Origin: Symbiotaphrina buchneri
Taxonomy: Eukaryota > Ascomycota > Symbiotaphrinales > Symbiotaphrinaceae
Direction of reading: 5' to 3'
NCBI GenBank assembly: GCA_001599915.1
Contig: BCIG01000011.1
Location: 248,001-312,000 of the forward strand
DNA: 64,000 nt
Part shown: positions 11,295-58,056 of the stretch, in pieces
Position numbering within the stretch: position 1 is the stretch's first letter
How the letters are laid out: the number at the start of each line of letters is the position of its first letter
Program-made: the position numbers and the translations under genes
The notes under the pieces: model-generated
Told to the model about the DNA's origin: nothing
What the model saw: the letters and a program-made list of their open reading frames with translations, nothing else
Databases searched by the model: none

Positions 11295-11844
11295 GAGGTA
11301 GGTGATGGCGCGCCGGCAGATCCAGGAATGTTCAGTTTCCCGGGCCCCCTAGGGACAAAGTCCGCTAACTAACGGTTGGGGATGGTGAGCACATATGGGC
11401 CTTTGAAAGAAGGATGTCACTGTGATTGCACGAAGCGCTGACCATCTGCCCAGGTAGGGCGGAATACCTCTTCGTCAGGTGAAAGCAGAAGATCGGAAAC
11501 GTTGATGATGGGCTGTCTCTGGGTGCTCTGAATGGTTGTCTGTGCTCGGACGCTAGTCTAACGATGACAGGGGAGGGGAGCAAGCAAGGTGTAGAGTAGT
11601 CCGTACAGGTAGGGAACCTGCTAAGAACTACAATTCCGTGTTGGTGGGACAAGTCTAAGATATACGAATAATGACCTTTTGTGTATGGACTGAAGACAGG
11701 GAAGATCGGGGATCCAAAACTAAGGCACATAACTAAAGGCGTTATTGCCGGTCGAAGAAGTTCAATATCAAGGAAATGAGCATACTCCGTACTCCGTATG
11801 CACGTCTCGGCTTGGCATGTTTGTCGAATTAAAGTACGAAGTAC
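11295..11844. promoter_or_regulatory. Upstream region of the phospholipase D gene
   Basis: A 550 bp gene-free stretch between the phospholipase D start and the MITE. It holds two overlapping copies of TACTCCGTA at 11783-11798, a short motif also seen in other spacers of the window. Promoter function is inferred from position only. Confidence 0.35.
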
Positions 11845-11846
11845 TA

Positions 11847-12513: not shown

Positions 12514-12661
12514 TATTGTACACCTAAGGTAAGGTACGTACCGCAGCAAGCGATAAGGTTACCTTATCTGCCCTGTCCACCGGCAGACGCTTCTGTAACG
12601 CCATTGTTGTCATCACTGCTGGAGGAATACTCTCTTCAGCTGCCCTCTCCTTGCTGCGTTC

Positions 12662-34582: not shown

Positions 34583-35592
34583 GATGGACGCTGATGTAGG
34601 AAGAACCACGCAGGAGCAAACACCTTAATACCTAGGTCCTGAAATAACTTGTGTAGGCTTAGAGTTTCGTGGTTGAGTCGCTCGGATGTCCACCTCAGAT
34701 TGTGGTATCAAGTAAAGCTCGTACACGGCATGTGTGTCGGGGAGGTTGCGTGCGATAAAAGGTGATAGTAAGGTCCAGTTCGGCATTGGCACGTCCCGAC
34801 GTCCGGAGTGAGCAACAACGAGTAGCGCGAAGAGCGAGAAAGGATGTGGCTCGTCACGTGGACTGCATCATCGATTCGGTCCCTCTCTCGGCAACTCGGG
34901 GTTGGGGGGACGGCGGCTGCGAAGTATTCTCTAGTACCAGGTGCAGAAGCGCACATAAGTACCAGGTACTTTCCGGTGTATTCTAGTCGTGGTATGACGC
35001 ATGGAGACAAATTACTGGGTACTGAGTACTCGTGAGGTACTTGGGGTTACCAGAAGGAGGGTGAGCTTTCCCCGCAAAATCACAGACCACCGCCCTTGGG
35101 ACTTGGGACCTTGGAACCCTGGACCAGACCATTCTTCCCCTTCCGTTCAACTACATCCTCCTTCCTCCTTCCTCCTGCCGGCAATAGTCAACAACCAGCC
35201 GCATCAGCCAATCATACGGCATCCACACCACACCACACCTCCGCATTGGCTTCCCCAGGCCCTCCACACTCTTAAGTACTCGTACAGTACCTTACCTTTA
35301 CCTACCTGGCTTGCCTAGGTTCCGTTGTCTTACACATATTCAGCTACTTCTGTTCGCCATTCGACTGCTTCTGCCTCTGCCGCTGCCATCAACCAAAAAG
35401 CCTAGCGTCTGCTGCTCTGTCGGTCCTGATACGAGTATATACGACGTACTCCGTACCCCGCCTTCGCCTACAACCATCACTGTCTATCTGTCGGTCTGTC
35501 TTGTCTGTTCATCAAATCGGCATACAATCTCTCGCTCGTCGCGGGCCTGCTCACCCGCTTTCCACAGCCGATTCCTTTGACATCCTTCCGTC
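34583..35592. promoter_or_regulatory. Divergent spacer between the PNPOx-like and NIPSNAP genes
   Basis: A 1 kb spacer with repeated AGTACCAGGT/GGTACT words (34930-35045), a long pyrimidine-rich stretch from 35140 to the NIPSNAP start, and a TACTCCGTA at 35447. Pyrimidine-rich tracts before the start codon are typical of fungal promoters. No gene was seen. Confidence 0.45.
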
Positions 35593-36733
35593 ATGCTTGC
35601 GCGACGTCTGTTACGGACCTCGCAGTCCGGCGCATATCTTTCCACCCCCATGCTTCGTTCCTTCGCTACATCCGCTCAGCACCACAGCCCTACACGTGCC
35701 CCCTCTCTGGCCGACGTGACCCCAGACAATGCGGCGGCGTTCGATGAGCGACAGAGACAATTCCGCGAACACTTAGCAGCAACGCAAAGGCAAAGGCAGC
35801 AGCAGGCAAGCAGTCAGTCACCGGATTCTTCTCCCTCCAAACTCTCCCCTGATGAACTCACCTCCGAAGCTGCCGGATCACCTTTGGGCTCACTAGCTAC
35901 TGCTAGCGCAGATAACGGCGATGCAGAACCAAAGCAACGCAAGAACCCTCTCAAATCCTTGATCTACGGTACTCATGAAGGGCAAGAGATGGACCGGGAG
36001 ATCGAAAGGTCCTTCAGCCAGGTTCTCGCGCGAGGCAAATACGTCCATTCGATAGTGTTTCATGATGTCAAGCCGGATAAGGTAGACGAATATGTTCAAT
36101 TGGTGGGCAGCTGGTATCCTAAAGTTGCATCGATGCCGGAGAACAATGTTCACCTCGTCGGCAGTTGGCGAACAGAAGTGGGAGACTGTGATACCTTCGG
36201 TATGTCTTTCCACGAAGGAGTCTAATTCGCATGCTAACGAGCTGAAAGTCCACATCTGGGAATACCAGCGTTATCAGGGATACCATGCCTCGCTGCACTC
36301 GATAGCCAGCCACCCTGAATTCCCCGCATTCGATGCGAAACTCAAGTCGCTCATCAATTCCAAGAAGACCTCCCTAATGCAGGAATTCTCCTTTTGGCCA
36401 ACAACAGCACCAAGGAAGCTGGGTGGCGTGTTCGAGTTGCGATCATACACGCTCCACCCGGGCAACCTATTAGAATGGGAAACACACTGGAGGCGTGGTC
36501 TCAAGGCGAGGCGGGAAGTCATGGAAGGGGTAGGAGCTTGGTTTGTGCAGATCGGCGACCTGAACACCGTGCATCACTTGTGGCAATTTGCTGATCTGGA
36601 AGAGCGGAAGATCAGGCGGGAGAAGAGCTGGAGCATCGAAGGATGGGGGGATACTGTCCACAAGACTGTCCCACTTATCCAAAGCATGAAGAGCAAGATC
36701 CTAGTTCCGATGCCGTGGTCGCCGGTCGCTTAG
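35593..36733 (+). CDS. NIPSNAP family protein (mitochondrial)
   Basis: Exons 35593-36199 and 36249-36733 (intron 49 bp) give 363 residues. The N-terminus MLARRLLRTSQSGAYLSTPM with LRSFATSAQHH is a typical mitochondrial presequence. A low-complexity linker of about 100 residues follows. Two NIPSNAP repeats come next: the first around KYVHSIVFHDVKPDKVDEYV and VHIWEYQRYQGYHASL, the second around GGVFELRSYTLHPGNLLEWE and FVQIGDLNTVHHLWQFADL. NIPSNAP proteins are mitochondrial ferredoxin-fold proteins linked in animals to mitophagy and vesicle transport; the fungal role is not defined. Confidence 0.93.
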
Positions 36734-41094: not shown

Positions 41095-43270
41095 ACGATG
41101 ATGAGGAGGGGGAGGAAGGCTGCAACACCAGGGACAAAGCAGAATCTATAGAGGAATTGATCCGTCTGGGTTACTCAGAAGTCTCACCTGGGTCCACACT
41201 CGCTTCGTGCCTTGGTTGGAGGAACTTCATACAACCTTATAGCCCGAGATGGGTAGTTAGAGATCATGCATCAAAGGCTTCGTGGACAGTAGGTGCAGAA
41301 AGCGCACAATATGCTCTTTCGTCCACCTTACCTGAAAAAGGAGCTTGTACCATTCTGAGATCTTTCAGCCCTGTATTTCTGTCGAAATTTGCTGTTATGC
41401 CCAGTACAAGTGCGGGCTACAACTTACCTAGGTAGTTACCATCCCCACCAAATTCTAGCTTCTAGAAGGAGGTTTTACGAGAAGGAAAGCAAATTAGGCC
41501 TTGTCAATACATGCACTTTCGTTTCTGATCGTTATGGCAGATACCATGGTCAAATGAAGCTATACCTTGTCGTTTTGCCATGGTAAGGCCTGCCTTAGTT
41601 TCCCACATTGTCCTTGCTTTCAGGTTGCAGATCGCAGTATCCATTCCCGCCGTGTTAAGGTTCCATCCTTGGCACTTCAGCGCGCAACGCACATATTGTT
41701 TTTGTGTAAATAGATGTTTGGCTTGGCCCGTACGCCCTTGACTTCGCCTTGCCCTGTCAAGTTCAGCCACTTCGCGGATTGCTATCCACCGTCGTTAAGA
41801 CAAAAGTCGTCAATATTGTCAGGACTGTAGGATTATACACCCCGGTATCTCCTCTGTAGTAGAATACTAGAAAGAGAAAACTCCTCCAAAACCATGGAGG
41901 GATAAGGATCATATAGTCTGCATGGATCACAAGCAAAGCAGTAGATGTTGCAAGCAAGTAACTCCATCCACTTTTCCATCCACGTCCAGGCCCGCTCGTT
42001 TCTTACCGCTTCTCCTCCGGAAGGGTAGGAAACTGTCTTGGCATGATGATCGCCCGTCGCCTGGCTGCTGCGAATGCCTCTGTAGCAATTGGGGAACTCT
42101 CTGTCCTTATAGCGCTTCCGATAGACATGAAGAATCTGGGATAGCAAGTCAGTCAATTCTGTCCGATTTCAAGTCTTTGGCCTTGCTACAAACCCAAATG
42201 TGGCTGCTGAGCCTAGCATGTATTGTCCCAATGTGCGCAGGAAGCCGTTAGGCCCAGCGCCGAATCGAATGATGTTAACACTCCCTGCGTAAGAGAGTTG
42301 GCACGTGGTGAACCAAAGGGCTATGCAGGGCAGGGCCTACCGAAGAGAAAGCCTATAATTAATCCCACAGCTGAGAGTTGGGAAGTTCAGCACGCCGGTG
42401 ATCATGACAGAGAGTGCTTTGAGGCTCACATCCACCCATCATTGCTCCCATTTTCACTGCGAACTGTCAGCTGGCGTCTCTAAAAGCGAGGGAGCGGAGA
42501 CACTTTGGAGAAGCTCACATTTGTCTACCAGCGATGGCCCTTGCATGCCATGTGGCTGGACTGGAACCGGCATCTCCTTCTGTCTGTGACTGCCTATGGA
42601 AGTCTGGGAAGCTTGATATGGATCGGTTGTGAAGCAATGTGGGCAATCAGACGTTGACGGCCATAGCCCTTATTATTTGCTAGCTGGCGCTACGCAAGAG
42701 CCATCCAGAAAGGTGAGCCAGCAAGATGACTCGCTAGGCGATAGACACGTGACAAGTTCCCGTCTAAGACTGCCAGAACGCAAAGACCCCGACCACGAAA
42801 GACGAGGCGAGCCCGCTCGCTTCTCCGTACCTTAACCTACAACAACGACCCATCGAAATCAAACGGATCCCCCTTTGTCTTTGAACGCCCGGAAACACTC
42901 AAGGCCAATTGTCAGCTAGATCGATCGTTGGTGGCTTCTGGTCTGAAAGGTATGCTTATCCAGAGTCGCCAGGATCTGTGCCAAAAGCCCTTGGGCGTCT
43001 TCTGCTGAGGGTGCGGAGCTGGCGTCTACAATCTCCTGACGACAACCCGTATCGCGGCCGCGTGCTGACATGTTCAAAACTCAGGACCACCCTAGAAACC
43101 CCTACATGAACCACCATCCGCAGGAGCACATTATCCAGGAAATTCGGAACAAACTGGTATTGCAGTGATCTCCTAACTACACCACTGTGGAATAGACGTC
43201 GATGAGGGAGGCATCCACAGCCCGAACTTAAAGTCACCGTCTCGATTAGACTGCTCCCAACACGCCGCAG
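41095..43270. other. Gene-poor region; 5' part may be a lost C-terminus of the SNF2-like gene
   Basis: The first 340 bp keep a coding-like frame (41157-41435: LIRLGYSEVSPGSTLASCLG, WVVRDHASKASWTVG) out of phase with the SNF2-like stop. The remaining 1.8 kb contain only short frames with no resemblance to known proteins. The end lies in the promoter of the FHA gene. Confidence 0.45.
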
Positions 43271-45622
43271 ATGACTGCGGTAGCCACACCTCCGAGTTTT
43301 CAGCCAATTCTCCGGCCAGGATGGAATACGGGTGATGGAAGTCAAAGCGGTTTGAGTGCCATGAGTGCCGACGAGGTGTCGCGAATGTTCATGCCAAGAA
43401 AGAGTGCTCAACGGTCCAACTCTTCATCATCGCTCTCGTCTTCGTCATCCTCCTCTTCTACTTCCACCATCACACAACAGCCACTCCAGTCGAACGGGGT
43501 CACTCCTACTGGTGAACTAAGCGGCTGGGGGCAGGCATCCCGGAAGCAGCCCGGAAGGGGACTGTGGCCGGCTGGAAAGACGGAGCCGATATCAGGCATA
43601 TCTAACGCTCGATCACAGTCAAGTGCCGCTTCGTCAGGTCCGTCTGCTGCATCGGCGATGTCGGCCATCCATCAACCATCGACAATATTACCTTCCCAGC
43701 ACATGCTCCAGTCACAGAATCAACAAAATGGAGCACGAGCAGGTATTGTGCAAGGCCAATTGGATGGCCCCGCTGTTCTGAATTTATCGCCAATCAATGG
43801 GACTTTTGAGCGCAAGACTATCACTGTACCTTTCTTCCCCGAAGTCTTGCGGATTGGCCGACAGACCAACGCTAAAACTGTTCCGACTCCTGTGAATGGA
43901 TACTTTGACTCGAAGGTTCTGTCCCGACAACATGCGGAAATTTGGGCAGATAGGAGCGGGAAGATTTGGATCCGTGATGTCAAATCTTCTAATGGGACTT
44001 TTGTTAACGGCACTCGGCTATCGGCAGAAAATAAAGATTCTGAACCGCACGAGCTCAGAGAGCAAGATATCCTCGAGCTGGGAATTGATATAGTTAGCGA
44101 GGATCAGAGAACTGTGGTTCACCACAAGGTTGCCGCCAGGGTAGAGCATGCGGGGATCTATGCCGGAGCACAAAGTGTCCTTGACTTGAACTTTGGCGAC
44201 ATCGACCCTGCCTCCGGAAGCGGTTTGAGAGCCCCTCCGATGGGTCAGGATATGAGACAACTGCGTGGACGTGCTGGTAGCGCTGGCTCCGCTGGTAGTT
44301 CACGCATGGGGTGTGCTCCCCCCAGTGTTGCTGGAAGTAACATCAACGTCATGGGCCAGCAACGACACATGAATTTTTGGCTCACCCCGGTAACCATGGA
44401 GCAAATTGTCAAGAGGCTCATGGTAAGCGATTCTCATCCTCCAAAAGACAAGTTAGCTAACCATTGTACTCAGATCGAACTCAAAGCCGCCAAACAACAA
44501 TCTGATGATCTGAGCAGGACTGGACGTTACGTTGATTCAATCCTGAACCAAGGTCCCCAAGTCAGTGAACAGAAGCCTCAAGCAGAGCCAATGCGCCGGC
44601 ATATAAACGAGTTGCCCATACCTTCAGAGGGAGACGCAAAGGTTGTCTTCTCCGATCCTCCAGCACCGCCTCCCCAACAGCCATTACCGGAGAAGCCGGA
44701 TGGCGCTCGCCCAAGCACGACGGATGCCAGCCTGTCATCCCTACAGCCTGGAGAGACGAGCCAGCTTGAGCCGCAGTTCATCAACTCATTAGCGAAGCCG
44801 GATACGTCGCATCACATAGTGTCGCTAGTGGAAGCGTTGGCGTCTGCCAAGAAAGAAATCGACTCACAAGGAGCAAGAGTGAAGGACCTCGAAGAGTTGC
44901 TGCACCAAGAGCGACTGGCCAGGGAAAGCGCTGAAGAGCGTGCTCAAAGGCTAGAAATGGAACATCAGCTGAGACGACTGGAACACGCAGAGACCAAAGA
45001 GCTGACCAGAAAAGCTTCTGAAGAGAAAGATTCTTCCGAACGTCATGCTAATGGCACCATCCACACCTCCGGAGTAACCAGCAAAGATGGAATAGCAATA
45101 TCGGACGATCCAAAATCCGCGGCGGCCTCAACAGCCCGTCTCCAGCAAAAGTTAGACATCATGATGGCCGAGATGACGGAGATGAAGGATAGAATGGAGA
45201 GTTATCGACGGCGAGCGGAAGCAGCCGAGGAAGAGACTACATCAACTCGCAAGAGCCTGGCTGAAATGGTCGAGCATATTCGCAAGAGAGACGCAGAACA
45301 GGAAGCCAGCAGGACGAAGCAGAAAGTCACCGTGGGGAATCTGGGAACCCAAACGGACAGCGAGACAATCGTCGAAGGACTATCTGCTGCCGACGGTTCT
45401 ACGCAGGAGATGGTGCGAAAAGCAGGCATACAGAACGGCAAACCCATTGCTTCTGCGGACTTGGGAGAGTTGGAAAAGGTGGTATCTACAGCGCTTGCGC
45501 ATCCCCGGTCACGTCATGAGCAACTCATGACTACGGCACCTTACGCCAGCATCGTCGGTGTGGTCTTCATCGGAGTTGGATTAATGGCATTCCTAAACGG
45601 ATGGCAGAAGGTTGAACGATAG
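43271..45622 (+). CDS. Tail-anchored FHA-domain protein (Vps64/Far10/SLMAP-like, STRIPAK)
   Basis: The frame is open throughout, but 44423-44473 (51 bp, GTAAGC..CAG, with GCTAAC as branch-like sequence) has every mark of an intron and is a multiple of three without a stop. Spliced length is 766 residues, unspliced 783. A Ser-rich N-terminus ([13 protein letters not shown]) is followed by an FHA domain at about residues 193-290 (EVLRIGRQTNAKTVP, SRQHAEIWADRSGKIWIRDV, KSSNGTFVNGTRLS). Coiled coil follows at about 500-680, then one C-terminal membrane segment (SIVGVVFIGVGLMAFLNGW) with a short luminal tail. This layout is that of Vps64/Far10 in yeast, SLMAP in animals and PRO45 in Sordaria. These membrane-anchored members of the STRIPAK/FAR complex act in cell-cycle and fruiting-body signalling. 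Confidence 0.9.
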   Translation: MTAVATPPSFQPILRPGWNTGDGSQSGLSAMSADEVSRMFMPRKSAQRSNSSSSLSSSSSSSSTSTITQQPLQSNGVTPTGELSGWGQASRKQPGRGLWPAGKTEPISGISNARSQSSAASSGPSAASAMSAIHQPSTILPSQHMLQSQNQQNGARAGIVQGQLDGPAVLNLSPINGTFERKTITVPFFPEVLRIGRQTNAKTVPTPVNGYFDSKVLSRQHAEIWADRSGKIWIRDVKSSNGTFVNGTRLSAENKDSEPHELREQDILELGIDIVSEDQRTVVHHKVAARVEHAGIYAGAQSVLDLNFGDIDPASGSGLRAPPMGQDMRQLRGRAGSAGSAGSSRMGCAPPSVAGSNINVMGQQRHMNFWLTPVTMEQIVKRLMVSDSHPPKDKLANHCTQIELKAAKQQSDDLSRTGRYVDSILNQGPQVSEQKPQAEPMRRHINELPIPSEGDAKVVFSDPPAPPPQQPLPEKPDGARPSTTDASLSSLQPGETSQLEPQFINSLAKPDTSHHIVSLVEALASAKKEIDSQGARVKDLEELLHQERLARESAEERAQRLEMEHQLRRLEHAETKELTRKASEEKDSSERHANGTIHTSGVTSKDGIAISDDPKSAAASTARLQQKLDIMMAEMTEMKDRMESYRRRAEAAEEETTSTRKSLAEMVEHIRKRDAEQEASRTKQKVTVGNLGTQTDSETIVEGLSAADGSTQEMVRKAGIQNGKPIASADLGELEKVVSTALAHPRSRHEQLMTTAPYASIVGVVFIGVGLMAFLNGWQKVER
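44423..44473 (+). other. 51-bp in-frame stop-less intron of the FHA gene
   Basis: Donor GTAAGC follows CTCATG, branch-like GCTAAC lies about 20 bp before the acceptor CTCAG, and length and composition match the other introns in the window. Because it is 3n long without a stop, retention would add 17 residues rather than truncate the protein. Confidence 0.85.
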
Positions 45623-46584
45623 TGGATGATGTAGAAGTGATGACCTTCAATGATTTCCTCTCTACGGGCTATGGCCCCTACAATGCAAGCGTTTTGCCAT
45701 TTTCCCTTTCGGTTTTTTGTTTTGACGTTAGCAAGCCTGACGGCCTAGAGGCCGGCGACGTTCGTTCATTGATCTTTTTTTGCGTCTCCTTCTTTGTATA
45801 CATCTACCGAGGTCTATTGTTGTCCATTTGGATGCCATACCTTGTTAAGCATGGAGTTATGAGCAGGACGGTTGAAGGGCGATGGTCGTCTACTCGTCGG
45901 CGTTTTTATGCTTCACCCGATTAGGGCATCAAAAGGGTGATAGGGGAATTACATCGGGAGCAATGGAAATGATTCTTCCTCACCTTCTTTGTTTTTCTCT
46001 CTCGGGCCTGATGAGGGCTTGCAGATACAAGGGAATGGATCCGACTGCATTCACATAGACCGTTCTGTTGTTTGAAGTAAGTTGGGCCAGTCCGAGTCCG
46101 AAATAAACGATGCCCCCTTAAAAGACGCAACGTCTAATATTTACAACGGGTAACCGACATTAATTTCGGCGGCTGAGCAAAGAGTAGTGGACTTGGAGAA
46201 AGACCTTGCCAGGGCCAGACGTGTGGCGGCGGAAGAGAAAACCCCGCGGCTCGAGCCTTTTCGAGAGCAGATTTCCGCGGCGCGACAACGTGTAAAGAGG
46301 CGGAGGTCAAATGTCGTGAGGTTCAGGGGCTTGGACGGCGGGTGAACGGGCGGCCACAGATGGCCCTACCACTGACTTGACAGCACCACGCGCTGTTTTC
46401 AAGCAGCTGACCCAGCACAAGGCGGAGAGGGACTGGCAAATGTGGTTGGCCCGTCAGCTACATTCTCGTTATGTTGAGGCCGATGGCCATCCTTTGCATC
46501 TTAACGAGTAAGGTTCTCATTCTCCCCAGTAGTACGCACAATATAAATAAGTTATATACTATAATAAGAAACTAATCTAACAAG
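45623..46584. other. Intergenic between the FHA gene and tRNA-Glu
   Basis: A 960 bp spacer. 46150-46350 is GC- and purine-rich (AGAGGCGGAGG, GGCGGAAGAG), and short frames there read as Arg/Glu-rich coil-like sequence, but nothing can be supported as a gene. Confidence 0.4.
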
Positions 46585-46700
46585 TCCGATATGGTGTAGC
46601 GGTTAGCATACCTGGTTTTCACCATGAGCAATCACGTGAGCCATCACGTGATGTTCACATGATCTCCCAGGCGACCCGGGTTCGATTCCCGGTATTGGAA
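46585..46700 (+). tRNA. tRNA-Glu (UUC) with a 44-nt intron
   Basis: The mature part folds as a cloverleaf. The acceptor stem is TCCGATA with TATTGGA, the D-arm GTGTAGCGGTTAGCAT carries the A-box, the anticodon stem CCTGG pairs with CCAGG, and the 7-base loop TTTTCAC has anticodon TTC. The T-arm CCGGG-TTCGATT-CCCGG is the B-box. Base 73 is A at 46700. The intron (46622-46665) sits at the canonical position after base 37 and contains two ATCACGTGA-type words. A T7 run at 46726-46732 is the Pol III stop. It lies at the left edge of the accessory island. Confidence 0.93.
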
Positions 46701-46725
46701 CAAATTGTATACCTTGGTGGGCATA

Positions 46726-46732
46726 TTTTTTT
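46726..46732 (+). terminator. RNA polymerase III T-run terminator of tRNA-Glu
   Basis: Seven T residues 25 bp after the tRNA end, the normal Pol III termination signal. Confidence 0.7.
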
Positions 46733-46860
46733 CTCTTTTCCTTTTCCTTTCTCTTTTCCTTTTCCTTTTTCTTTTCCTTTTCCTTTTTCTTTTCCTTTTC
46801 CTTTTCCTTTTCCTTTTCCTTTTCTTTAATTCCTTCTTTCTTTCTCTTTCCCAAACCTAG
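46733..46860. repeat. Polypyrimidine microsatellite (TTTTCC)n
   Basis: About 100 bp of near-perfect CTTTTC/CCTTTT hexamers from 46733 to about 46826, continuing as a degenerate T/C-rich stretch to about 46855. Read on the minus strand it gives an artificial KEKEKE frame. Confidence 0.9.
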
Positions 46861-46949
46861 GTCCAAGCAGGACACAGGGTCTTACCTGTGCCAGGATCAT
46901 CTACAGCCACCAGATGTAGGAAGGAAGAAGTTGATACCAGCGAAACGGA

Positions 46950-47146
46950 AGTGCGACCACCCAGGTGGACTTCGATAACCGTTCTGAAGGATTATGTACT
47001 TTTAGTAGGGCCGTTGCTGTTGGCCTGTCGTGACTTGGCCGTGGATAGTGGTGCGACCACCCAGGTGGACCTTGACAGCCGTTTCAAAGGATCACGTACT
47101 CTAAATGGTGCCACTGCGGTTAAGCCTGTCGTCTTGGCCATGGCAC
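46950..47146. repeat. Diverged tandem duplication, unit about 101 bp
   Basis: Unit 1 (46950-47050) and unit 2 (47051-47146) both begin GTGCGACCACCCAGGTGGAC. They share the order of GATAACCGTT/GACAGCCGTT, AAGGAT, GTACT, GGCCTGTCG/AAGCCTGTCG and CTTGGCC with many substitutions. Each unit carries the palindrome CCACCCAGGTGG. It lies at the left of the accessory island. Confidence 0.75.
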
Positions 47147-47474
47147 GAATTTTTCTCAACATACATCTTCATGGTTCTCTACTTGTAGTCGTCTGTGGTA
47201 TCAGTGATAGAGACTCTGTTACACACGGGAAAACAAAAGGGTCATTATCAGCACAGGGGGAAAGGTTTACTTCCCGCGAGTTGTGTTATCGAGTTGAGCA
47301 TACTACATAGTGAGGTACATTGTCCAGCCATAGAGCATATATTAGTGTAGGATAGATGCTAGAGCTAGGTATGAAAGGGAGTAAGCGATCCCGTTTTGCT
47401 GGTAGCAGCTCACAACGTAGGCCATGCTGATGTTCTAAACCGCCGCGCGGTACTCAAGTAGGCACCAAGGTGTC

Positions 47475-48251
47475 TTAGGCAAGAGAAGCTTTGGTTCTCT
47501 TAGTAAGAGAAGCTTTGGTTCTCTTAGTTGACATCGAAGGTCCAACTTCACTTTCGTGGTCTGACTCTTCCTTCCATCCCTCTGCGTCCTCAGAAGATTC
47601 AGCTTGATCAGACTCTATCGCCTCGCTCTCTTCCGACGCTGATATCCCGACATCCTTTTCTGCCACTGCTGCGCCCTTGGATATCCGCGCCCTCTTTGCA
47701 CGAGAGGTTTGGCTCTTGCCTTTCAACTGCAATCCAACAGAGAGGAAGACATCAACTAGGGTGTCTCCATCCATATTTGCCAGCTCAGAGGACTCGGATT
47801 CTCCTCGCTGGTCTAGCACCCACGTTCTCCAGGCCCTTGCCCGAGGCAAGGTATTGCTGGTCTGCTTGACCATAAACTTATCCTTCGCGTATCCGTCAGA
47901 AAGGCGGACATAGAGATCTACTTCGGCATCTGTCGACGTCGACTTTCGCTTGTGTGTAGATGCAGGTGCTCTCCACGTCGCCCTATCAGTACGGACAACC
48001 TTTGAATGGATTGACTTTACTTACTGCCCAATGGTCCCACCTAGGTGCTGTAAGATTAAGTCAACCTTTTGCATGAGAACGCTCTGAAGCCGCTGTATGT
48101 CCTGTAGTGACCTTGCCAATATGTCGGTGCGGATTTCTAGTACTCGATGCCCCGCACTCAATGCATCGCTGACGGCAGAGGGCCACTCATGACTGAGAGT
48201 GATGTCCGGGACGGCTTCCGGCAGAGCTCCTTTGGTCTTCTTGGAAGGCAT
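47475..48251 (-). CDS. Unidentified protein with acidic and basic-repeat tail (island gene 1)
   Basis: Exons 48025-48251 and 47475-47982 join over a 42-bp intron (TIGQ-ATWRAPASTHKRK) to give 244 residues. The N-terminal part is a short helical region (EIRTDILARSLQDIQRLQSV, LMQKVDLILQHLGG). A middle region WRTWVLDQRGESESSELANM precedes VDVFLSVGLQLKG. An acidic stretch (ASEESEAIESDQAESSED) follows. The C-terminus has a tandem basic repeat TKRTKASL TKRTKASLA encoded by two near-identical DNA repeats at 47475-47528. I know no family. It lies directly downstream of the recombinase on the same strand and is probably cargo of the same element. Confidence 0.65.
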
Positions 48252-48738
48252 GATGTTTGCCTCGGCTTTGATTGTCAGTGGTTCGTCTCCGTGGTCGTAG
48301 AAGTGTGTGTCATGGTAGATTCGCCAGAGGGGAACGCGTAAGGAGCGCGGAGTCACGCGACTCCTTTGGAGCCCACCGTACGCCGTACCATGGTGACGGA
48401 AGGAACCACCGCCACCACCTAGGCAGGACAAGAAATAGTGCCAGAGGTATGAAGAAGAGTAGGTTTAAGAGGATACGAATGAGGAGACCTTTCAGATACT
48501 TGAGCAAAGCTGATAAGGATTTATCTTGAGCAAAGCTGACAGGACCACCCATCCAGCACCATCAAGGATCATACGCAAAGCTCAAGCCCATGGCAATAAT
48601 CTCTATGCAAGGCTGATAAGATTAAATGTTCTGCAAAGCCCACATAACGACCTTTCTTGCAAAGTTGGTACTTCTGATCATATTTGCCGCGACTTCCGTT
48701 AGAATCATCTCCTCCCGCAATGGCCGATGACATGTGGT
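48252..48738. other. Spacer between island gene 1 and the recombinase gene
   Basis: A 490 bp non-coding stretch with repeated GAGCAAAGCTGA/GCAAAGC words at 48490-48670 (TTGAGCAAAGCTGA at least twice, plus CGCAAAGCTCA and TGCAAGGCTGA). It is probably the promoter of island gene 1 and the 3' flank of the recombinase. Confidence 0.45.
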
Positions 48739-51340
48739 CTATGCGCGGGAAATCGTCTTGGGATCACGTATTTCGACGGACAGCGCGGAACCGAAGCTGA
48801 AGAACTCCTTTGAGCCGGATTCAGAAGCTTTGGAACTCTTGCCATAGACCATTGGAGCGTTCTCACCATCATGATGTTTCCTTTTACCTCCGACGGTAAA
48901 GACCGGGCTAGAGGTGCAGCCTTTCAGGCTGGCCAGAACAGGTGTCTCCAGAGCCACACTCGATTCAGAACTTTGCCATTCCACGACCGACTGTTTCCGT
49001 CTCTTCTCATAGTCCACTCTAGCAGCCTTCCTGACCGTCGTATCCTTCGTCCAATCCGCACTGTACCACCCTGCTTCAAGCATACGTTGTCTGTGCTCGT
49101 AGCCGTCTGATCCATGTGTCAGATGGTATTCGAGATCTGTACGTCTAGAGAAGTCTCTCCCACATCCATAAGGACACACCCAGCGGGTACCAGGCTCGTG
49201 TTCTGAGTCAATCTTTCTCCTCCATTTAAACAGTCCTGTGTGTACACTGGAATCCAAATGTCTCCGGAGATCAGATACGGATTTATACCACTTCTCCTGT
49301 GCTCTTGTGCTCAGTATAATGCAGTTGGAAAGGCTTTGCCTTTACACACCTTTGAATCGCTGCTAATGGTCTCATCACCTAGGCAGAGATGGCATTGCCT
49401 TGGGTCCCCCGCCCTTTGGTTCTGGATTTGTAGCATCCATTTAATGAATGTCTGGGTCAGCTCCGCATAGCCTTCCGCATCAGCCAGGGAGGTACTTTGC
49501 AAAGCCTCATCCACGTCGACATGGTCGTTGGTAGTGGCTTCCGGACCATGGTCCTTGACCACGCCGTCATCAGAGTGCGCCTCACACACATCCCTGTACA
49601 CATCAGGGAGGTCATCCTCGAGCACGGAATCCTCTTCGGCGGATGAGGCTTGGTTCTTCACCCACTCGTGGACTATGTCGATGAGAGCGCTTCGTCGGGC
49701 GAGCTGTTGCCGGCGTTGGTCAAGCTCATCCAAGGTCATAGTAGCTCGAGTCAATTCGCGTTCATGTTCAAGAAGAGCGCCTAGAGCTTGCTTTCTCAGC
49801 CTTCGTGCGATATTCCAGGCCTCCGCCGGCGTCCCAGTTTGTGAAGCAGCACGCCACGACTCATCGGCCTCAACATAGTTTCGTATGAAGATAGCCCGGT
49901 CTCTGTCTTGGATCACACGAAGACTAGCGTGTAACGCCACGCTGGATTCCGCCTCTAGAGCTTCTCTGTTGGCCAACTCACCCATTGTGAGAGCGTACAC
50001 GTCCAGATCGTACAAGCCCTGGTCGTAGTAATCCTCGAAGGTCGTTGTACCCAGACGATGGGCCAAGTAGGTCCCTGCAGTATCGGGGTTGGTTGCACGC
50101 GAGATAACAGTCCCAGCTTTCCGCCGCCATGCGTAGAATGTCGACCCCTCGGGATATCCTGTATGGAGGACACGGACCCGGAGGTAGTCACTTAGCGAGG
50201 TCGTCGACATTGGAGCCATTCGACCCCAGTCAATCGCCTGGGTCCCGGCACCACTCGCAAGAAAGACAGGTTGGTCAAGGACAGAATTCTTAATCCTTAT
50301 ATGGTAATCTGTGCCTCGCAAGAGAGAGTCTATGGTTGAGTGATCCTCCAAGTAACCTCGGCGGACGAGGATTATGACCAGCCTTAGACCGATTGAGAAT
50401 GGAATATTCTCATAACTCTGTGGGCTACGCACTGTCTGACATAAGATTTGAGGGCGCTCCACAGCGCCCCATTTAGCTGGAAACATCAGCAGTGATCGGG
50501 CTGAAATCCATCCAAGCGAGACTATACCTTTGATTGCACGAAAAGTGAACTTGACCGTGAACTTCATTGCACAGTCAGGCTGGCGAGTGACTTCGATGTC
50601 CTCCCATCGCAGATATTTCCCTTCGCGTCTTTTTCCTTCTGCCATGGTGCTGGGCCTGACACCACAGACAAAAGCAATAAGCCAAGCGAGGTGATGTTGT
50701 TCAGATACCTCTACTGGTGTCCCCTTGTCAACGTCGAAATCAATCAGATGCTTGACCTCGTGTCGGCCCATGTATGCTTTGGGTCGGGGATCGGCAACAC
50801 CGAGCTCCTGAACCGTCCACTGCAGGCCCTCCTGGATCCGTACCCAGGCTTGGTCACTCCAGCCACTTCCTCTCTTTCGGAGAGCCCAGAACTTCAGAGT
50901 GTTTTTCCGGTTTGTGATCGTGGAGTACCTGGGACGCGTATTTCGAGGATTGTTCGGCTGTATTAAATGTAACAAGGCGACAAAGTGACTTAGGTAAGTG
51001 AGCATTAACACTAGCTGAGACTCAGGGGAAACACTCACAGTGCCAGGGTACTCCCGAACAGTTCGTCGTTGTCCGGGAAGAGTATGTGGTCACTCTTATC
51101 CGACATCCATTCTTCCTGGGTAAGACCCAATTTTTGATCGTCTTCAATAAGATCCCACATCACCAAGCGATATTCTTTGAGGTGGGCGTCTTGCTCATAT
51201 ATAGTGCTAGGTGCATGCCACCGGAAGCCCTTGCTCGCATCGTAAGTGTTCCTGATTTGGCTGATACGATGCTGGAGCTCGCCATTTTCCCTCAAGCCCG
51301 CTAGGGTCTTAGAAATGCCCGCAAGCGCAGGTGCCGACAT
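48739..51340 (-). CDS. Tyrosine recombinase (DUF3435-like) with two C-terminal C2H2 fingers
   Basis: Four exons are inferred: 51039-51340, 50528-50928, 49350-50476 and 48739-49296, giving 795 residues from MSAPALAGISKTLAG. Introns at 50929-51038 and 49297-49349 are clear. The 51-bp intron at 50477-50527 is in frame without a stop. Catalytic tyrosine-recombinase boxes are present: the first Arg in LIAFVCGVRPSTM (about residue 192), the YAWRRKAG box (about 349-352), LAHRLG, and Tyr in TTFEDYYDQG (about 384). A Glu/Arg-rich helical segment follows. Then come two zinc fingers: CHLCLGDETISSDSK leading to DLRRHLDSSVH, split by the last intron, and CPYGCGRDFSRRTDLEYHLTH. DUF3435/Crypton/Starship enzymes move DNA by tyrosine-mediated strand exchange. 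The core looks intact. Whether it is a true Starship captain is open. Confidence 0.85.
50477..50527 (-). other. 51-bp in-frame stop-less intron of the recombinase gene
   Basis: Donor GTATAG follows ATCAAAG, a CTGAT branch-like word precedes the acceptor TTTCCAG, and splicing removes 17 residues between FRAIK and KWGAVERPQ. It is the same length and type as the stop-less intron in the FHA gene. Confidence 0.6.
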
Positions 51341-52744
51341 CTTGAAGGAAGGCTTAGCTGCAAACAGGGAGGAGAGGCAAAAGAACGCGAGAACAGGCAG
51401 AGACCTGGTGCTGTAGAGAGATCGCGCGAGATGGTGGTAGGGCGAGCAACACAGGAAGAGACCGAGGGGAGGTGAAGGATGATATATGGTGGTACCGTTA
51501 GACAGTACAGGAAGAGATATGAAGGAGGTGAAGAAAGACAGATGAGAGAGAGCGTCCCCTAAACCAAGTCTTGATGGTGACTCAGACAAGGCAAGGTACT
51601 TAAGACACATAAAGCAGGTATGGTCGGGTACAGAGAGTAAGGGAGTAGCTGGGTAAGGTAGCTACCTAGGTAGACACGAAAATCAAAGTTGGTACCTTCC
51701 GTACGGAGGCACGTGGGTGTCTTCACAGCAACTACGCCCCAACCAATGCGGGTCGCTAGGACAGGACCTGGCACTTGATTGCAATATGTTGCTTCAATCC
51801 GGTCCCGTCTATTCTCACGGCGTAAGCTGCTCACAACAGGCGGCAGCACTAAGGTAGCTTTCTCTCCGACCACGATGGCTTCCCTCGGCAGGAGTTGCTA
51901 TTGATGCCCCAGCGTGACGGATCTGCTTGGTCCAGGCTTCCCAGAGTCCTCCCTACCGTTTCATGCCAGCAAGGAGAGTATGCCAGAGACATCACTCTAC
52001 ACCGCTCCATGGGACGGACCGTGTAGCTAGGGCAGGCAGGGTGCAGAAATACCTTACGCCGCACGTTCGAGACACCCACAAGTCCACTTGGATCGTATCT
52101 TTGACCAAGATATACACTTCGATCACCCAGGTGAGCAGCCAAAGCTTGAAGACAACCAAGGCAACGTTCTGGGACAGACGAGCGTGAGCGGTTGGGCCTT
52201 GATGGAGGAGCAGGCGGAGTACCTGCTATTTCACAATTTATTGGGGAATCGAGAAATCGAAACTCGTTTCCCAGCAGGTCCGTGCTCAGCTCTGTGAACC
52301 TAGGTACCTTAGTGGCTCTCGGACTCTAAAAACATCCTCACACAAACGCGCGGACTACTCCCAGCTTCCTCCGGCATGTGATGAAGACTATGTTCCGTGC
52401 AGCACCTCCGGCGGTCCACGAAAGGATGACTTCAGCCTTCTCGAAGAAGCCTTGCAAGCAATGCTTTTTGAAGCAGTAGGAGCGCGGCGTGCCAGAATCC
52501 AACCGTCCTTCCAAGAATGTGACCAAGGTCGATGCTTAGCTGAGGCCTACGGCGAAGTGGGTAAGGTACCTAGGCCGCCAAATGAAGATTAATGAGTAAG
52601 TCGAGTCCAGTGGTGGTGTTGAGAGACAACGTCGGACAAATGAGAGGACGCCATGGAAAAGCCTCAGTCTGGAGTCAATGCCGTCTGTACAGTGTTCATG
52701 GAGCTTTTGACTGGTTCTTAGACCTGAGTGGTCAATGCGATTGA
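51341..52744. other. Spacer upstream of the recombinase; isolated coding-like fragment on the plus strand
   Basis: A 1.4 kb stretch. The part before the recombinase start is pyrimidine-rich in its own direction, as expected for a promoter. From about 52070 to 52297 the plus strand reads as a coding-like fragment (DRIFDQDIHFDHPGEQPKL, GWALMEEQAEYLLFHNLLGN) without a start codon. It may be another captured gene piece. A CACCCAGGTG palindrome lies inside it at 52124-52133. Confidence 0.45.
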
Positions 52745-53599
52745 CTAGATAGATTCCAATGGGAACCTCTCATTGAACAGAGCATTGACCACTGGGTCAC
52801 CATCATCCGAGTCCTCATCAGAATGCTCGTTCATGTCCATGTCCTCGTCAGGAGAGTCCTCAGGGCCGGGTCCGCCTCCCTCCACTTCAGACCGTCCACT
52901 TCCTTCATCTGTCTCGGATCCACTCTTGGATCCACTCAGTATGCTTTCCTCCTCTTGTTCTTCCATTGCCCAGTAGCGTTCCCAATCTCGTTCTATACCC
53001 GGGGCAAACCTTTCTCTCAGGGTCTTGGGCCTGGTGCCCCAAGGACGTTCAATGGCGGTGATAGCACCACCTAGACGAACAGCAAGGTCTGTCGCCATAG
53101 CGGCGACGCGTTCTCCATCTCTTTCTGTGCTTTTTCCAATTGCTTCTAATGCTTGTTGGGTCGATGCCAACAAGCCAAAGGCTTGACCCAACGCTGTTTC
53201 ATATACACCAGCTATGGGGTTTTGTTCTTTCTGACTCCTTTTTTTTGGGAGTTGTCTTCCTGCTTCTTCGAAACATTTTTTGATCCTTCCTGTAACATGT
53301 TGACGCCAGGGTTTATCATTATTCTCTCCCGTTACGCACCAATTGTCTTTGATGAGGAGCCCATACTTGTCAAAGAGATAAATATCCCCAAGCTTTATAG
53401 CATCGCCATTCTCGAGTAAGGCGTAATGCCATTGACTTCCTTTATTATGGGTATATACCCATTTCCCTGTATCGGTAGTACCGATAAGTAGCTTGTTCGA
53501 GTTTGTAAGCCAAACGTTCCCTGTGTTGTCTTGATCTAAACCAGGTGTCCCTTGCAGTTCTGGGTATTGGTTCATTGGTTGGCTTGTTCTATTGAACAT
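52745..53599 (-). CDS. Unidentified acidic-tailed protein (island gene 2)
   Basis: A 284-residue frame from the ATG at 53599 (MFNRTSQPMNQYPELQGTPG). The frame is open further upstream into the minisatellite, but that part is repeat DNA. A spliced 5' exon is possible because a TTCATCCTGGTACAG acceptor-like sequence precedes it at about 53650. The N-terminal half is rich in Trp, Gly and Asn (TGNVWLTNSNKLLIGTTD, GSQWHYALLENGD, LGDIYLFDKYG) and looks like a small beta-rich fold. The middle is helical (CFEEAGRQLPKKRSQKEQ, ALGQAFGLLASTQQALEAIG). The last 70 residues are Glu/Asp/Ser/Gly-rich. I know no family. It is co-oriented with the recombinase. Confidence 0.6.
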   Translation of the reverse strand: MFNRTSQPMNQYPELQGTPGLDQDNTGNVWLTNSNKLLIGTTDTGKWVYTHNKGSQWHYALLENGDAIKLGDIYLFDKYGLLIKDNWCVTGENNDKPWRQHVTGRIKKCFEEAGRQLPKKRSQKEQNPIAGVYETALGQAFGLLASTQQALEAIGKSTERDGERVAAMATDLAVRLGGAITAIERPWGTRPKTLRERFAPGIERDWERYWAMEEQEEESILSGSKSGSETDEGSGRSEVEGGGPGPEDSPDEDMDMNEHSDEDSDDGDPVVNALFNERFPLESI

Positions 53600-53697
53600 C
53601 AGTAGCTGTATAGCCGTTATAAGAGAGCAAAACACACCCTGCCATGATGATAGCCTGTACCAGGATGAATTAGCAATGTCTGATAAACCCAAGTGTA

Positions 53698-54270
53698 GAT
53701 GACTACCTGGGTGATCTGAGTGTTGGTCTTCCATACCTAGGTGACTCGTCACGAGTAATGAACAGCGAGTAGAGAATGAAGAGGATGGGTTCGACAGTAG
53801 ATAAGATCGTCTCTTATGGAAATGTATGATCCAAGTGTCGGTCTTCCACACCTAGGTGTCGGAAAATGACTCAACAGGTTCCGAAGACCTGCAGGCAGTC
53901 TTTCGCAGGCACTTCGAATCTCACTTTGCTCCTCTGGAGGAAGAGCAGCACCGGAAACGAAAAAAAGTCGAGATACCACCACCTACGGGCGAAAGAGAAT
54001 CCAGCAGTGACTGGGAAGGGCTTTCAGAAGACGGGCAGGAGGTTGTGGAAGTTGTCGAGCACTCGTCACGAGTAATGAACAGCAAGTAGAGAATGAAGAG
54101 GATGGGTTCGACAGTAGGTAAGATCGTCTCTTATTGAAATGGATGATCCAATGTTGGTCTTCCACACCTAGGTGACAGTCACGAGTAATGAACGGCGAGT
54201 AAGTGAATGAAGACGGTGGGTTTCGACAGTAGGTAAGATCGTCTTTTATTGAAATGGATAATCCTTTCAA
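53698..54270. repeat. Minisatellite with 115-bp unit, interrupted by a 202-bp insert
   Basis: Units start ACTCGTCACGAGTAATGAAC and end TTCCACACCTAGGTG: unit A 53744-53858, unit B 54061-54174, a more diverged partial unit C from 54175 to about 54266, and the end of a further unit at about 53698-53743. A, B and C share the ATGAAGA..GG, TTCGACAGTAG and AAGATCGTC words. The segment 53859-54060 between A and B has no repeat sequence and is coding-like. Confidence 0.85.
53859..54060 (+). pseudogene. Captured fragment of a conserved fungal gene, between minisatellite units
   Basis: On the plus strand the segment reads SENDSTGSEDLQAVFRRHFE, SHFAPLEEEQHRKRKKVEIP, then SSSDWEGLSEDGQEVVEVVE without a stop. 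The pattern Asp-Leu-Gln-x-hydrophobic-Phe-Arg-Arg-His-Phe-Glu followed by a basic run and SDWEGLSE/VEVVEH resembles, from memory, the N-terminal region of a small conserved fungal nuclear protein that I cannot name with certainty. There is no start codon in the segment, and it enters repeat sequence at its end. It is read against the direction of the four island genes. The best explanation is a host gene piece trapped in the repeat array. Confidence 0.5.
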
Positions 54271-54346
54271 CCTAGTAGCTTAGCCACCAGCGTACAAACT
54301 AGAGCTTGAACGTAGCATAAACCATGTCTTCGACAAGTACTATCTT

Positions 54347-55454
54347 TCATCGGTGCTGAAGATTCTGTATCCTAACGACCCTCTCCACAAGCTCTTGAAA
54401 CTTTGAGAGCTCAAATCCCCTTGCCCGTTGTTGGAGTTGAATTGATGCGTCCCCAACCTTGACTAAGTACTGCATTATACCGGTACTCATACGTGCATCC
54501 ACCCAGTCCATTTCCTTGTCTATGACTTCCCTCACATGCTGTATGGTCATTCCCTGGTCACTATCATCGACACAAAGGTTGAGCAAGCTTGTCAGGCGGC
54601 CCAGGCACAATGACAGGTGCCCACATAGCGAGAGAGCATCATTGACCCTCATTTCTAGTTTCTGTGCCTCCAGTTCAACGGTTTTGACCTTCTCCTCCGC
54701 TGCCCTGGTTTCAGCTCTTGCCTGCTCGGTTTCAGCTCTTGCCTGCTCGATCTCTGCCTTTGTGGCATCAGCTCTGGTTTTGGCTTCGGCTTCTGCCTTC
54801 TCTAGCTTGGTCGTTGTACTTGTAACCTTATCTTCAGCCTGTTGCAGCAGCCTCTTGATATCTTCGATCTTTTCATTCGATGCCTGAACGTGCTCCAGGA
54901 TGGTTTGGCGTGTGGTAATCATGCTTTTAGATATGCTTGACTTGTATCGCCTGTTTTATTAGCTTTAATCCACTAAAAGATTGGGTTCACAACTACCCGG
55001 AAACATACCTGCCTGATCTGGCTTTCTTCGATTGACTTGGTGCATCAGATTCAGAATCTTCGAGGGAACGCTTAGCTATGGTGTCCTGGTCAGGAATCTC
55101 CGGACCGGCAAGCTCATATACTCGGCCATGGAAGTGGACGTTTGATTCGTAGTATGGTGGCATACTCTCCCTATCTGCGCGTATTTCACCGAGAGCATCA
55201 AAGTCGAGACTGTAGCGACTTCGAGCTTGTTTGCTCAAACGGGGGATTGCCAACAATAGAATGCCGACGCTCCTATCGGAGAGCTTGCAGCCTGGCACAG
55301 GGAACTTTGGGTCGCCCGGATTACTACCGTCAAACATATCACCATGGACTATAGAGGCAGACTGCGCCATAGCGCCAGGCGATATCCAATAGCTGACCTT
55401 GGTGGGTTGATATTCTTGAAGTTGACCTAGGTGAATGGTAGACTGAGTTGACAA
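54347..55454 (-). CDS. Coiled-coil protein (island gene 3), 5' end uncertain
   Basis: Segments 55009-55454 and 54347-54950 join over a clear 58-bp intron (KKARSG-RYKSSISKSMITT) to about 349 residues. The first part reads QPTKVSYWISPGAMAQSASI, DMFDGSNPGDPKFPVPGCKL, LLLAIPRLSKQARSRYSLDF, and ends in a nuclear-signal-like SQSKKARS. The second part is a long coiled coil (EKIEDIKRLLQQAEDKVTST, then tandem AEIEQARAETEQARAETRAA) and a C-terminal helical domain. The frame begins just after a perfect acceptor-like sequence (TTTGTCAACTCAG at about 55448), so an upstream exon carries the start codon. A spliced candidate reading VATTNEYPEVFIERFKNGAA lies at 55570-55740 but the frames did not join. The first usable internal Met is at MAQSASIVHG. 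No family known. Confidence 0.62.
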
Positions 55455-56068
55455 AGAAAGAAAGAATGCAGTAGGCCGGGAGATGATCGGGGGTATAGAC
55501 GAGCGAAACTGATAGAAACCGTGAATAATTCTGCGATGATGAATATATTCAGCAACCGAATCCTCTTACCTGATCTGTGACTCCTGCCACCTGCAGTGAT
55601 GTCCGGCTGGTATCTCGTAGCCTTGAGCACTTCTAGTATGTTTCAAGAAACATGCAGCCCCATTCTTGAATCTTTCGATGAAGACTTCTGGATATTCATT
55701 GGTGGTAGCCACTTGAAACGGAGTACGTGAAGTGGCTCTATTGGTTTCAGGGCTTCGCTCCGTCTATCAGGGACTTGGTTCTGCATGCCTGAAGAAAGCG
55801 CAAAGACGCAGTGTGCATAGCAGAAGTCCAATGTACAGAGCATGTGACAGAAACCCTGTTAGAGGCAATCGGAACTATGACAAACTCCACCCTAAACAGC
55901 GTATGCGGAAGTGAAAACGGACGGTAGCCCCGGAGACGTTACAATAATGCTCAACCAGACGCCTCTCCGAAATCTACCAGCAGGTATACCGCTAAAATGC
56001 AAAGACCAGAAAACCTGCAACCAAGCGAAGACATAAGAGGGTATATAGCACCATGTGGGCAGCCGGCT
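55455..56068. other. Right margin of the accessory island
   Basis: Holds a probable 5' exon of island gene 3 on the minus strand (TPFQVATTNEYPEVFIERFK, AQGYEIPAGHHCRWQESQIR at about 55565-55745, ending at a GTAAGAG donor) and then about 300 bp of unassigned sequence up to the Rho3 3' end. No terminal repeat or copy of the tRNA-Glu end was found by eye. Confidence 0.4.
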
Positions 56069-57131
56069 TCACATAATTATGCACTTGCTGCCACTGCCGC
56101 CGCCGGATTTACTTGGCCCTTTGACTGAGAGTGCTGCTCTTGCAGCTTCGGTGAAAGCCTATATTCGAATAAGTATGAGACACACAGAAAGCCATTGATT
56201 TGTGCGTATACCTCGTTGACACCACGGTTACGCATTGCTGAGCACTCTGTTGCATGTGTTAGTCTATCGGCGAAGTATGGATAAGGTAGGCTCTGGCATC
56301 CATACCCAGATACCGTAACGCGCCTATTCTCCGAGCTACCTCTAGGCCCTGCTCGTAGGTAATGAACTCTTTCTCCCTCCTTCCAGTGGCTTCCGCCCCT
56401 TCCTCCTCGTCGGCGTGGTTTTCTCTCAGATCACATTTGAGAGCAACTAAGACCAGCTTGACGCCCGCGCAGTTCTCCGCAATCTCTCCCACCCACTTGC
56501 TCTCCACGTTCTCAAGGGAATCTTTATTGTCGACCTAGTCCACCAATCAATGTCAAGAAGCGCTTAGAAGCGTTTCGTGGTCTTACACTGAAGCACAGCA
56601 TGATTGCATGTGTGTCGTCATAAGACAAAGATCTTAACCGGTCGAATTCTTCCTGCCCGGCAGTATCCCATAGACTCAGTTCGATATGGACGCCATCAAC
56701 AAAGATATCTAAGGCAAGTGAGCAGATATCCGGCAGGTGCGGAAAACGTCAAGGTATACCGTGGACGTAGTTCTCTGTCTACCTATCAGTAAAGGTCTCG
56801 GACCAGCGATCAATGATGTGTCTCAACTTACCGAAAACTGTGGGTTCGCTGGCAGATAAGCAGTCAACAATGTTGTCGATCAGGAAGGGGCGCGAAACCT
56901 ACTATACTGTGGGGAAATAGCTGCAAAATATGGTCAGTGACGGGGTCATTTTATGAGGCTCAGCAGTCACTACCCTCTGGTGAACACATTCAGTAATGAT
57001 GTTTTCCCACATGCACCGTCCCCTCTGAATCATGGTCAGTGACACGGACGTGGCGACGACACAAGCGCGAATTGACCATACAACAACACCAACTTTCGTT
57101 GGACCGTTTTACTCCCACCGCAGAGTGGCAT
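56069..57131 (-). CDS. Rho-type small GTPase Rho3
   Basis: Nine exons (57082-57131, 56974-57024, 56903-56920, 56832-56848, 56760-56774, 56587-56708, 56306-56534, 56212-56246, 56069-56158) give 208 residues. Exons 3, 4 and 5 are only 18, 17 and 15 nt and together encode the effector loop (YFPTVYEPTVFENYVHD). The G boxes are present: [12 protein letters not shown] (G1), [19 protein letters not shown] (G3), ALKCDLRE (G4) and [10 protein letters not shown] (G5). The Rho insert is charged ([17 protein letters not shown]). The C-terminal CaaX box is CIIM. The sequence fits the Rho3 group, which controls polarised exocytosis and actin organisation at hyphal tips. The start [13 protein letters not shown] has the usual Rho3-type N-terminal Cys. 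Confidence 0.93.
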
Positions 57132-58056
57132 ATCGATTGCGCAATAATGGCGGATCTGGGGTGACCTTAGATTTGTTGTGAGGTTCGTCGGCGACGGGGC
57201 GCGATGGCAGCTGTATAAGAAAGCAGGAGGGCCGACAGGACGAAAGGCCTAGAGGCACTGTTCTCGTTCTGGACATTTACCTTTTCAAGATTACTATGGA
57301 CTTTGTCCAGGGAACGGACAACAAGATCAGCCAAATCTACCTTACTTTTGGAACTTGCCGCTATTTTGGTTAGCCCGGACATTGATCTATTTATTCATTG
57401 GACCGCAAACTGTCCCAACTTCCGATCGCTTGATGAAGGAATAGAAAAGCCGCCGGCCGCTTGCCCAGGTAAGGTAGCTCGTACGGTCCTTTACCTGGCG
57501 AGCCTGGACCTACTACCTTACCTACTTCCGAGCGGTCCAACCGTACGACCACAGCAGGATAATTTGTGCTGTTGAAGTGATGATGCCATTGCTTACCTAC
57601 CGTTAGCATCTCGTTGCTTACCTACGTGATGGAGTTAACTACACTGTACAGCGTAAGCGTCTCTACGGCAAGGTTAACCGCAGCGGCAGTTGATTTTTGG
57701 CTGGCCTACCAGTACTCGTTTTGCCTAGGTATCTACCGTACCTCACTTCGAGGCCACATCTGGCCACATAGATAAATGAATCGAGGTAGCTATCCATACC
57801 TTACCCTGCGGACACTGAAGAAGCTCAACTACTCATATCCCTGGATATGAGGTAGCTGCTGGCTTCACGATAATGGATGGGGTATTCAGGAGCAGGGCAG
57901 GTACGGTACTTGATAAAGCAGTTCCGATGTGTATGTACTCCATTGCCTACGCGTGAGGCATTCATGCGACCACTGGAACAATCATATCCTGAGACTGCAG
58001 ATCAGCCACGGCAGCACCATCAACATAAATCATAATATCCCGTCCAAAAGCAGTCA
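57132..58056. promoter_or_regulatory. Rho3 upstream region
   Basis: A 925 bp spacer between the Rho3 start and the CWC25 3' end. It contains clustered TACCTTACCTAC/GGTAAGGTAGC words (57468-57610) and CCTAGGTATC near 57724, motifs found in other spacers of the window. No gene was seen. Confidence 0.4.

Follow-up and report, generated by a model that had tools for sequence, protein, structure and literature searches.

The interval of about 9 kb that runs from a tRNA gene to a Ras-family gene in a 64,000-nucleotide stretch of Symbiotaphrina buchneri DNA (contig BCIG01000011.1; this whole stretch is the window, and positions are counted from its first letter) probably holds one apparently intact tyrosine recombinase (YR) gene of the 'solo' DUF3435 type, set in DNA rich in repeats and gene fragments and standing beside three orphan genes. 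On sequence grounds the locus is a member of the DUF3435 recombinase family. A preliminary description had proposed a YR element with a co-oriented cargo set; what it observed is largely right and has been confirmed in part, and the element with its cargo is unproven. The signal shared across the interval exceeds what one would look for in a random neighbourhood.

That the DUF3435-like recombinase looks intact was borne out. With the introns 51038-50989 and 49349-49297 removed, and optionally 50527-50477, the spliced frame runs without a stop, and the whole protein matches PF11917 (DUF3435) at E 2.9e-9 (36.8 bits, the curated cut-off being 25.8). Because removal of the optional intron raises the DUF3435 score of the core from 34.5 bits (E 1.5e-8, read through) to 38.6 bits (E 8.4e-10, spliced out), this intron is probably real. 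Codon usage is host-like. The catalytic candidates, R212, K254, Y369-x-x-R372 and Y404/Y405, were picked by eye, without an alignment or a usable fold, and lie at the expected places, with spacings of 42 from R to K, 157 from R to Y and 35 or 36 from Y to Y, so that the enzyme looks catalytically complete. Shared with the captains of Pezizomycotina Starships, HhpA of Hephaestus and that of Sanctuary, are both DUF3435 and the R-K-YxxR-Y series at similar spacing: R260, K308, Y424 and Y458 are given for the Sanctuary captain (PMC12506042), from which spacings of 48, 164 and 34 can be computed, and Y381 and Y416, a spacing of 35, for HhpA (PMC12506042).

Two C2H2 fingers had been claimed for this protein, and one of them survives in weakened form, as a C2H2-like finger in the C-terminal part that Pfam scores at 16.6 bits, below its cut-off of 25.2. 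The other cluster of cysteines and histidines, an upstream CxxC whose histidines follow only at a long distance, has no Pfam match and was dropped as a finger; it may resemble what other DUF3435 proteins have. This C-terminal C/H-rich part is a likely DNA-reading piece, and the Sanctuary captain likewise has a candidate DNA-binding region C-terminal to its YR domain (PMC12506042). In the excerpts returned by a literature search, DUF3435 and C2H2 co-occur only in unrelated places, and the search found no text that pairs 'FluG domain' with a tyrosine recombinase. Structure was of little help: a single-sequence fold prediction for 49350-50987, with the optional intron kept in frame, was too poor to use (mean predicted local distance difference test score, pLDDT, 34.6), and the best match of the core to PDB by sequence had an E of only 0.85.

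What might such an enzyme do? Because of its YR catalytic residues, action like that of a Starship captain is to be expected. By analogy it would assemble as a tetramer on short direct repeats, Tyr404 or Tyr405 would form the covalent phosphotyrosine link, and DNA would exit or enter through site-specific recombination. The palindrome CACCTAGGTG may be a shared binding site, either for the C/H-rich part of the YR or for a transcription factor; both this binder and the mechanism are inferred.

The recurrence of a palindrome had been remarked on in the preliminary description, and it was confirmed. With at most one mismatch CACCTAGGTG has 10 sites in the window, nine of them in 46701-55745, where 1.4 would be expected; this enrichment is reported here for the first time. 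Once several repeat copies are masked it ranks first in enrichment among the 1024 palindromic 10-mers, with 7 of 8 sites inside (p 6.0e-6), a figure to be read with the incompleteness of the masking in mind, as the sites at 53734 and 54165 lie in copies of a 115-bp unit and the one at 52124 falls within 26 nt that match the region of 53705 in inverted orientation at 81%. When only independent sites are counted, 6 of 7 are inside, or 5 of 6 if 52124 is set aside as well, and p corrected for the 1024 palindromes is about 0.04 or 0.25, respectively. With open reading frames (ORFs) masked there are five sites in 2828 positions inside and none in 22,011 outside (p 1.9e-5), two of the five being tandem duplicates. 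Near-matches, with up to two mismatches, number 20 in 46701-55745, where they span 46710 to 55424; none starts in 41426-46709 or in 55425-57618, and the remainder of the window has a further 20, scattered. The palindrome consists of two abutting CACCT half-sites. Taken singly, plus-strand CACCT is not enriched (10 of 60 in the interval, 8.5 expected) and AGGTG is (20 of 71, 10.0 expected), and the CACCT counts speak against the half-site idea. Overall the enrichment is suggestive and is carried partly by an old local repeat; it is compatible with either a regulatory or a recombinase site, and it ties the four genes together more than had been claimed.

These four, the YR gene and the three orphans, are all on the minus strand, and the description of the orphans as co-oriented genes lacking an identity stands. 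None has a Pfam match above cut-off, a search that distant relatives could escape; the best sub-cut-off match, for orphan gene 3, has an E of 0.00052. The introns of orphan genes 1 and 3 have in-frame splice sites. In-frame host-codon scores for orphan genes 1, 2 and 3 are 0.130, 0.146 and 0.114, on a measure trained on eight host ORFs that themselves score 0.039-0.160; because a neighbouring frame of orphan gene 2 reaches 0.080, the codon support for this gene is the weaker. The longest stop-free runs in the interval, 592 aa (YR) and 368 aa (orphan gene 2, the acidic gene), exceed 273, the longest of 200 shuffles, and the fifth-longest, at 200, exceeds 143, the largest fifth among those shuffles; the runs of orphan genes 1 and 3 (181, 190 and 202 aa) are singly inside the range of shuffled longest runs. 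Orphan gene 1 had been credited with a tail of basic repeats: it does end in two TKRTKASL repeats of eight residues, and its last 60 residues are net acidic, with 8 K/R and 15 D/E. The acidic tail attributed to orphan gene 2 was found as described, its final 60 residues having 20 D/E and 3 K/R; its start is uncertain, at 53734 (329 aa) or at a Met at 53575 (276 aa). The fold predicted for the 276-aa form was of low confidence and too poor to use (mean pLDDT 43.4), and its best PDB match by sequence had an E of only 0.33.

Are the four related to one another, or of foreign extraction? No pair of orphans matched in blastp at E 1 or better, and tblastn of the block's proteins on the window, down to E 0.5, matched nothing except the gene of each. 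A recent foreign origin was rejected on composition, the GC content at third codon positions of the YR (0.561), orphan gene 1 (0.527) and orphan gene 3 (0.522) being inside the 0.521-0.591 of the eight host ORFs; the acidic gene, at 0.430, is below that range and is a point against the rejection. Scans of IMG/VR with all four proteins, and of GTDB contigs with a 630-residue stretch of the YR, gave no relative that tblastn confirmed, negatives that carry little weight because these are viral and prokaryotic collections and the scans required short exact peptide words.

If the block moves, where are its ends? Between 46585-46730 and 46731-58000 the only direct match of at least 9 nt is the 11-bp ACCTTGGTGGG, and its two copies bracket exactly the four genes. 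It is no better than chance, as 44 of 400 control pairs of regions outside the interval, of the same size and at the same distance, share at least 11 bp; cutting the left side to 60 bp lowers this to 2 of 400, a restriction that was chosen after the match was seen, and both copies are motif-like. The 10-bp direct match CACCCAGGTG, found at 52124 and at 46958/47058, brackets the YR and orphan gene 1 and is of ordinary length, since 189 of 400 controls reach at least 10 bp (in comparisons of 774 x 707 bp, the region actually searched being larger, 774 x 1404). The longest inverted match in the search is 12 nt, a simple repeat of the TTTC type. No terminal repeat rose above the controls, which were random region pairs, and the YR is not at an end of the block. 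The proposal that the four genes form one mobile unit was not confirmed. Nor was the proposal that the tRNA served as landing site, 46731-58000 containing no tRNA-derived att copy. A duplication of the tRNA 3' end as att was rejected, as the sole match of at least 9 nt starts some 10 nt beyond the tRNA.

Comparison with known systems bears on what kind of entity this is. Starships are described as led by a DUF3435 captain in first position, with direct repeats and often terminal inverted repeats (PMC12257634, PMC12134995), and as being from 15 to about 700 kb in size (PMC12134995). Among 20 Aspergillus fumigatus Starships of high confidence, terminal inverted repeats were present in 18 and direct repeats, 2-12 bp long, in 19 (PMC12153272). 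In contrast, the YR here is third of the four in transcription order and would be first only if the two upstream orphans lay outside; there are no confirmed direct or terminal inverted repeats; the interval is about 9 kb, if the ends lie within it; and Pfam finds no accessory domain such as DUF3723 in the four proteins. The motif-like repeats do have a parallel in Tardis elements, whose 9-11 bp repeat has a core that is over-represented genome-wide (PMC12153272). CryptonF elements are also fungal and also use a YR, have short direct repeats at their ends in place of terminal inverted repeats, and have been proposed to pass through a circular intermediate (PMC3212892); their proteins carry GCR1_C (PMC3212892), whereas the YR here has DUF3435 and no Pfam match to GCR1_C up to E 1. 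On these features the locus, as it stands, qualifies neither as a Starship nor as a Crypton. DUF3435 genes are reportedly 'solo' more often than captains (PMC12134995), and with these the locus shares a single such gene devoid of demonstrable element boundaries; it differs from them in its block of three co-oriented orphans and its enriched palindrome.

Some points weigh against the solo reading, though it is the probable one. An excess of the palindrome and a uniform orientation suggest a common past for the four genes, which would not be predicted for a solo gene that merely stands among unrelated ones; an undamaged YR frame is unexpected for an old dead insertion; and near-matches to CACCTAGGTG with up to two mismatches occur within 600 bp upstream of all four block genes and of 5 of 23 host-like ORFs. 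Might the block then be a small four-gene DUF3435 element, of 8.7 kb (about 46711-55406), lying between the 11-bp repeats, one just past the tRNA and the other a little upstream of orphan gene 3, from which the YR would excise a circle and for which the orphans would be helpers or cargo? This is rather doubtful. The exactness with which ACCTTGGTGGG brackets the block, the emptiness of the flanks in palindrome near-matches, the intact YR and the common orientation argue for it, and such an element could have been overlooked, at least one survey having filtered out DUF3435 elements below 15 kb as captain-gene indels (PMC12153272); the control frequency of 11-bp matches, the motif-like character of both copies and the third place of the YR argue against it. 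A still more specific proposal, a compact (8-9 kb) autonomous DUF3435 element beside a tRNA whose four genes are co-regulated and whose own CACCTAGGTG sites would be read by the C/H-rich tail of the YR, is distinctly doubtful.

The position of the YR would be explained if this were a degraded or very small Starship with its 5' end in the stretch that separates the acidic gene from the YR, since the captain would then be the first gene and read inward, orphan gene 1 would be its cargo and the other two orphans would be unrelated. The placing of CACCCAGGTG fits, but the match is of a length that chance readily supplies, the size would be only about 5 kb, Starship accessory domains are lacking by Pfam, and the two genes left outside are likewise marked by the palindrome; we regard it as improbable. 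Decidedly improbable is a co-regulated cluster that is no longer mobile, in which a retained YR, kept perhaps as a DNA-binding regulator, and three lineage-specific genes would have a palindromic promoter element in common. It draws on exact ACCTAGGT, present in the 600 bp upstream of three block genes out of four and of 2 of the 23 host-like ORFs (whose starts are approximate, being the first Met of long open frames of which many are perhaps inner exons), and on host-like codon usage in three of the four; against it, the surrounding repeats and fragments resemble mobile debris.

Why does the choice matter? To our knowledge, it is an open question by what route small tyrosine-recombinase elements gave rise to Starships that carry cargo. 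If the block is mobile, it offers a DUF3435 element that is small and testable, together with candidates for helper proteins and for binding sites, and a compact element would be a small relation, so far missing, of the giant Starships, under the 15-kb cut-off of the survey. If it is not mobile, it is another solo DUF3435 gene, the state reported as more usual.

The features are collected below.

Table. Features of the interval and its borders, in window coordinates
Feature	Positions	Strand	Basis
DUF3435 YR gene, 815 aa	48739-51340	minus	spliced model, Pfam
Orphan gene 1, 240-244 aa, one intron (48024 to 47983 or 47971)	47475-48251	minus	gene model
Orphan gene 2, acidic-tailed, single exon	52745-53734	minus	gene model
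Orphan gene 3, 321 aa, second half coiled-coil, intron 55008-54951	54347-55370	minus	gene model
CACCTAGGTG sites with at most one mismatch: 46958, 47058, 47463, 48038, 52124, 53734, 53849, 54165, 55424	46958-55433
ACCTTGGTGGG, left copy of 11-bp direct repeat, about 10 bp past the tRNA, putative left end	46711-46721	plus
ACCTTGGTGGG, right copy, 26 bp upstream of the ATG of orphan gene 3, putative right end	55396-55406	plus
Period-6/18 TTTTCC-rich tandem array	46729-46849		Tandem Repeats Finder
Two tandem units of about 94 bp (77% identity), CACCCAGGTG in each	46951-47143
115-bp unit, three copies: 54264-54150, 54149-54055, 53832-53719	53704-54264	minus
Coding-like fragment, 70 aa open, no family	53862-54071	plus, opposite to genes
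Coding-like fragment, 81 aa open, no family	52347-52592	plus, opposite to genes
tRNA-Glu(TTC), 44-nt intron at position 37/38, left interval edge	46585-46701	plus	Rfam, ARAGORN
FHA-domain gene	43250-45622	plus	FHA E 1.7e-15 (Pfam)
Ras-family gene, exon	56259-56534	minus	E 1.1e-7 (Pfam)

Repeats and coding-like fragments are located between the block's genes. The minisatellite of the preliminary description is the period-6/18 array. Its captured gene pieces are there as open coding-like stretches, none of the four scanned reaching a Pfam cut-off. Within the 115-bp family the second copy is split by a 200-bp coding-like piece of the opposite strand, on the far side of which its end is found (53860-53834, with CACCTAGGTG), and the third copy runs uninterrupted across the junction at which the second is split. 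The thresholds for a base composition like that left by repeat-induced point mutation (RIP) are reached in 20 of 254 half-kb windows over the 64 kb, four of them wholly and one partly in the interval, which is about its share, so RIP-like composition was rejected as evidence. Outside the interval, half-kb windows in 34501-35750 and 57251-58000 have RIP-like dinucleotide ratios.

The left edge is, as had been proposed, an intron-containing tRNA-Glu: Rfam gives a tRNA at 51.8 bits (46585-46700), and ARAGORN, with introns allowed, gives the intron. A default bacterial tRNA scan missed it. The two flanking genes had been named FHA and Rho3, of which the FHA gene, on the left, stands, and 'Rho3', on the right, reduces to a Ras-family match on one exon with no subfamily assigned. 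Between the FHA gene and the tRNA, 46323-46511 is a coding-like tail on the plus strand that ends in a stop codon of its own, in which the 16 nt at 46470-46485 are an exact inverted match to 49862-49877 in the YR coding sequence, probably by chance. Further away, 11845-12515 contains an inverted repeat pair of 30 nt (97%) and a direct one of 47 nt (79%) around the AT-rich 12001-13000 (41.5% GC), possibly a small mobile-element relic. The window also encodes a Has1-type helicase; its top match in PDB, 8i9p (Chaetomium), scores 632 bits, with 623 for a chain named HAS1 (budding yeast) and 608 for 8esq (fission yeast), which suggests that the host is probably a filamentous ascomycete. At 5877-11348 there is a single ORF of 1824 aa that matches phospholipase D and, barely, PX, an unusually long unbroken frame for this window.

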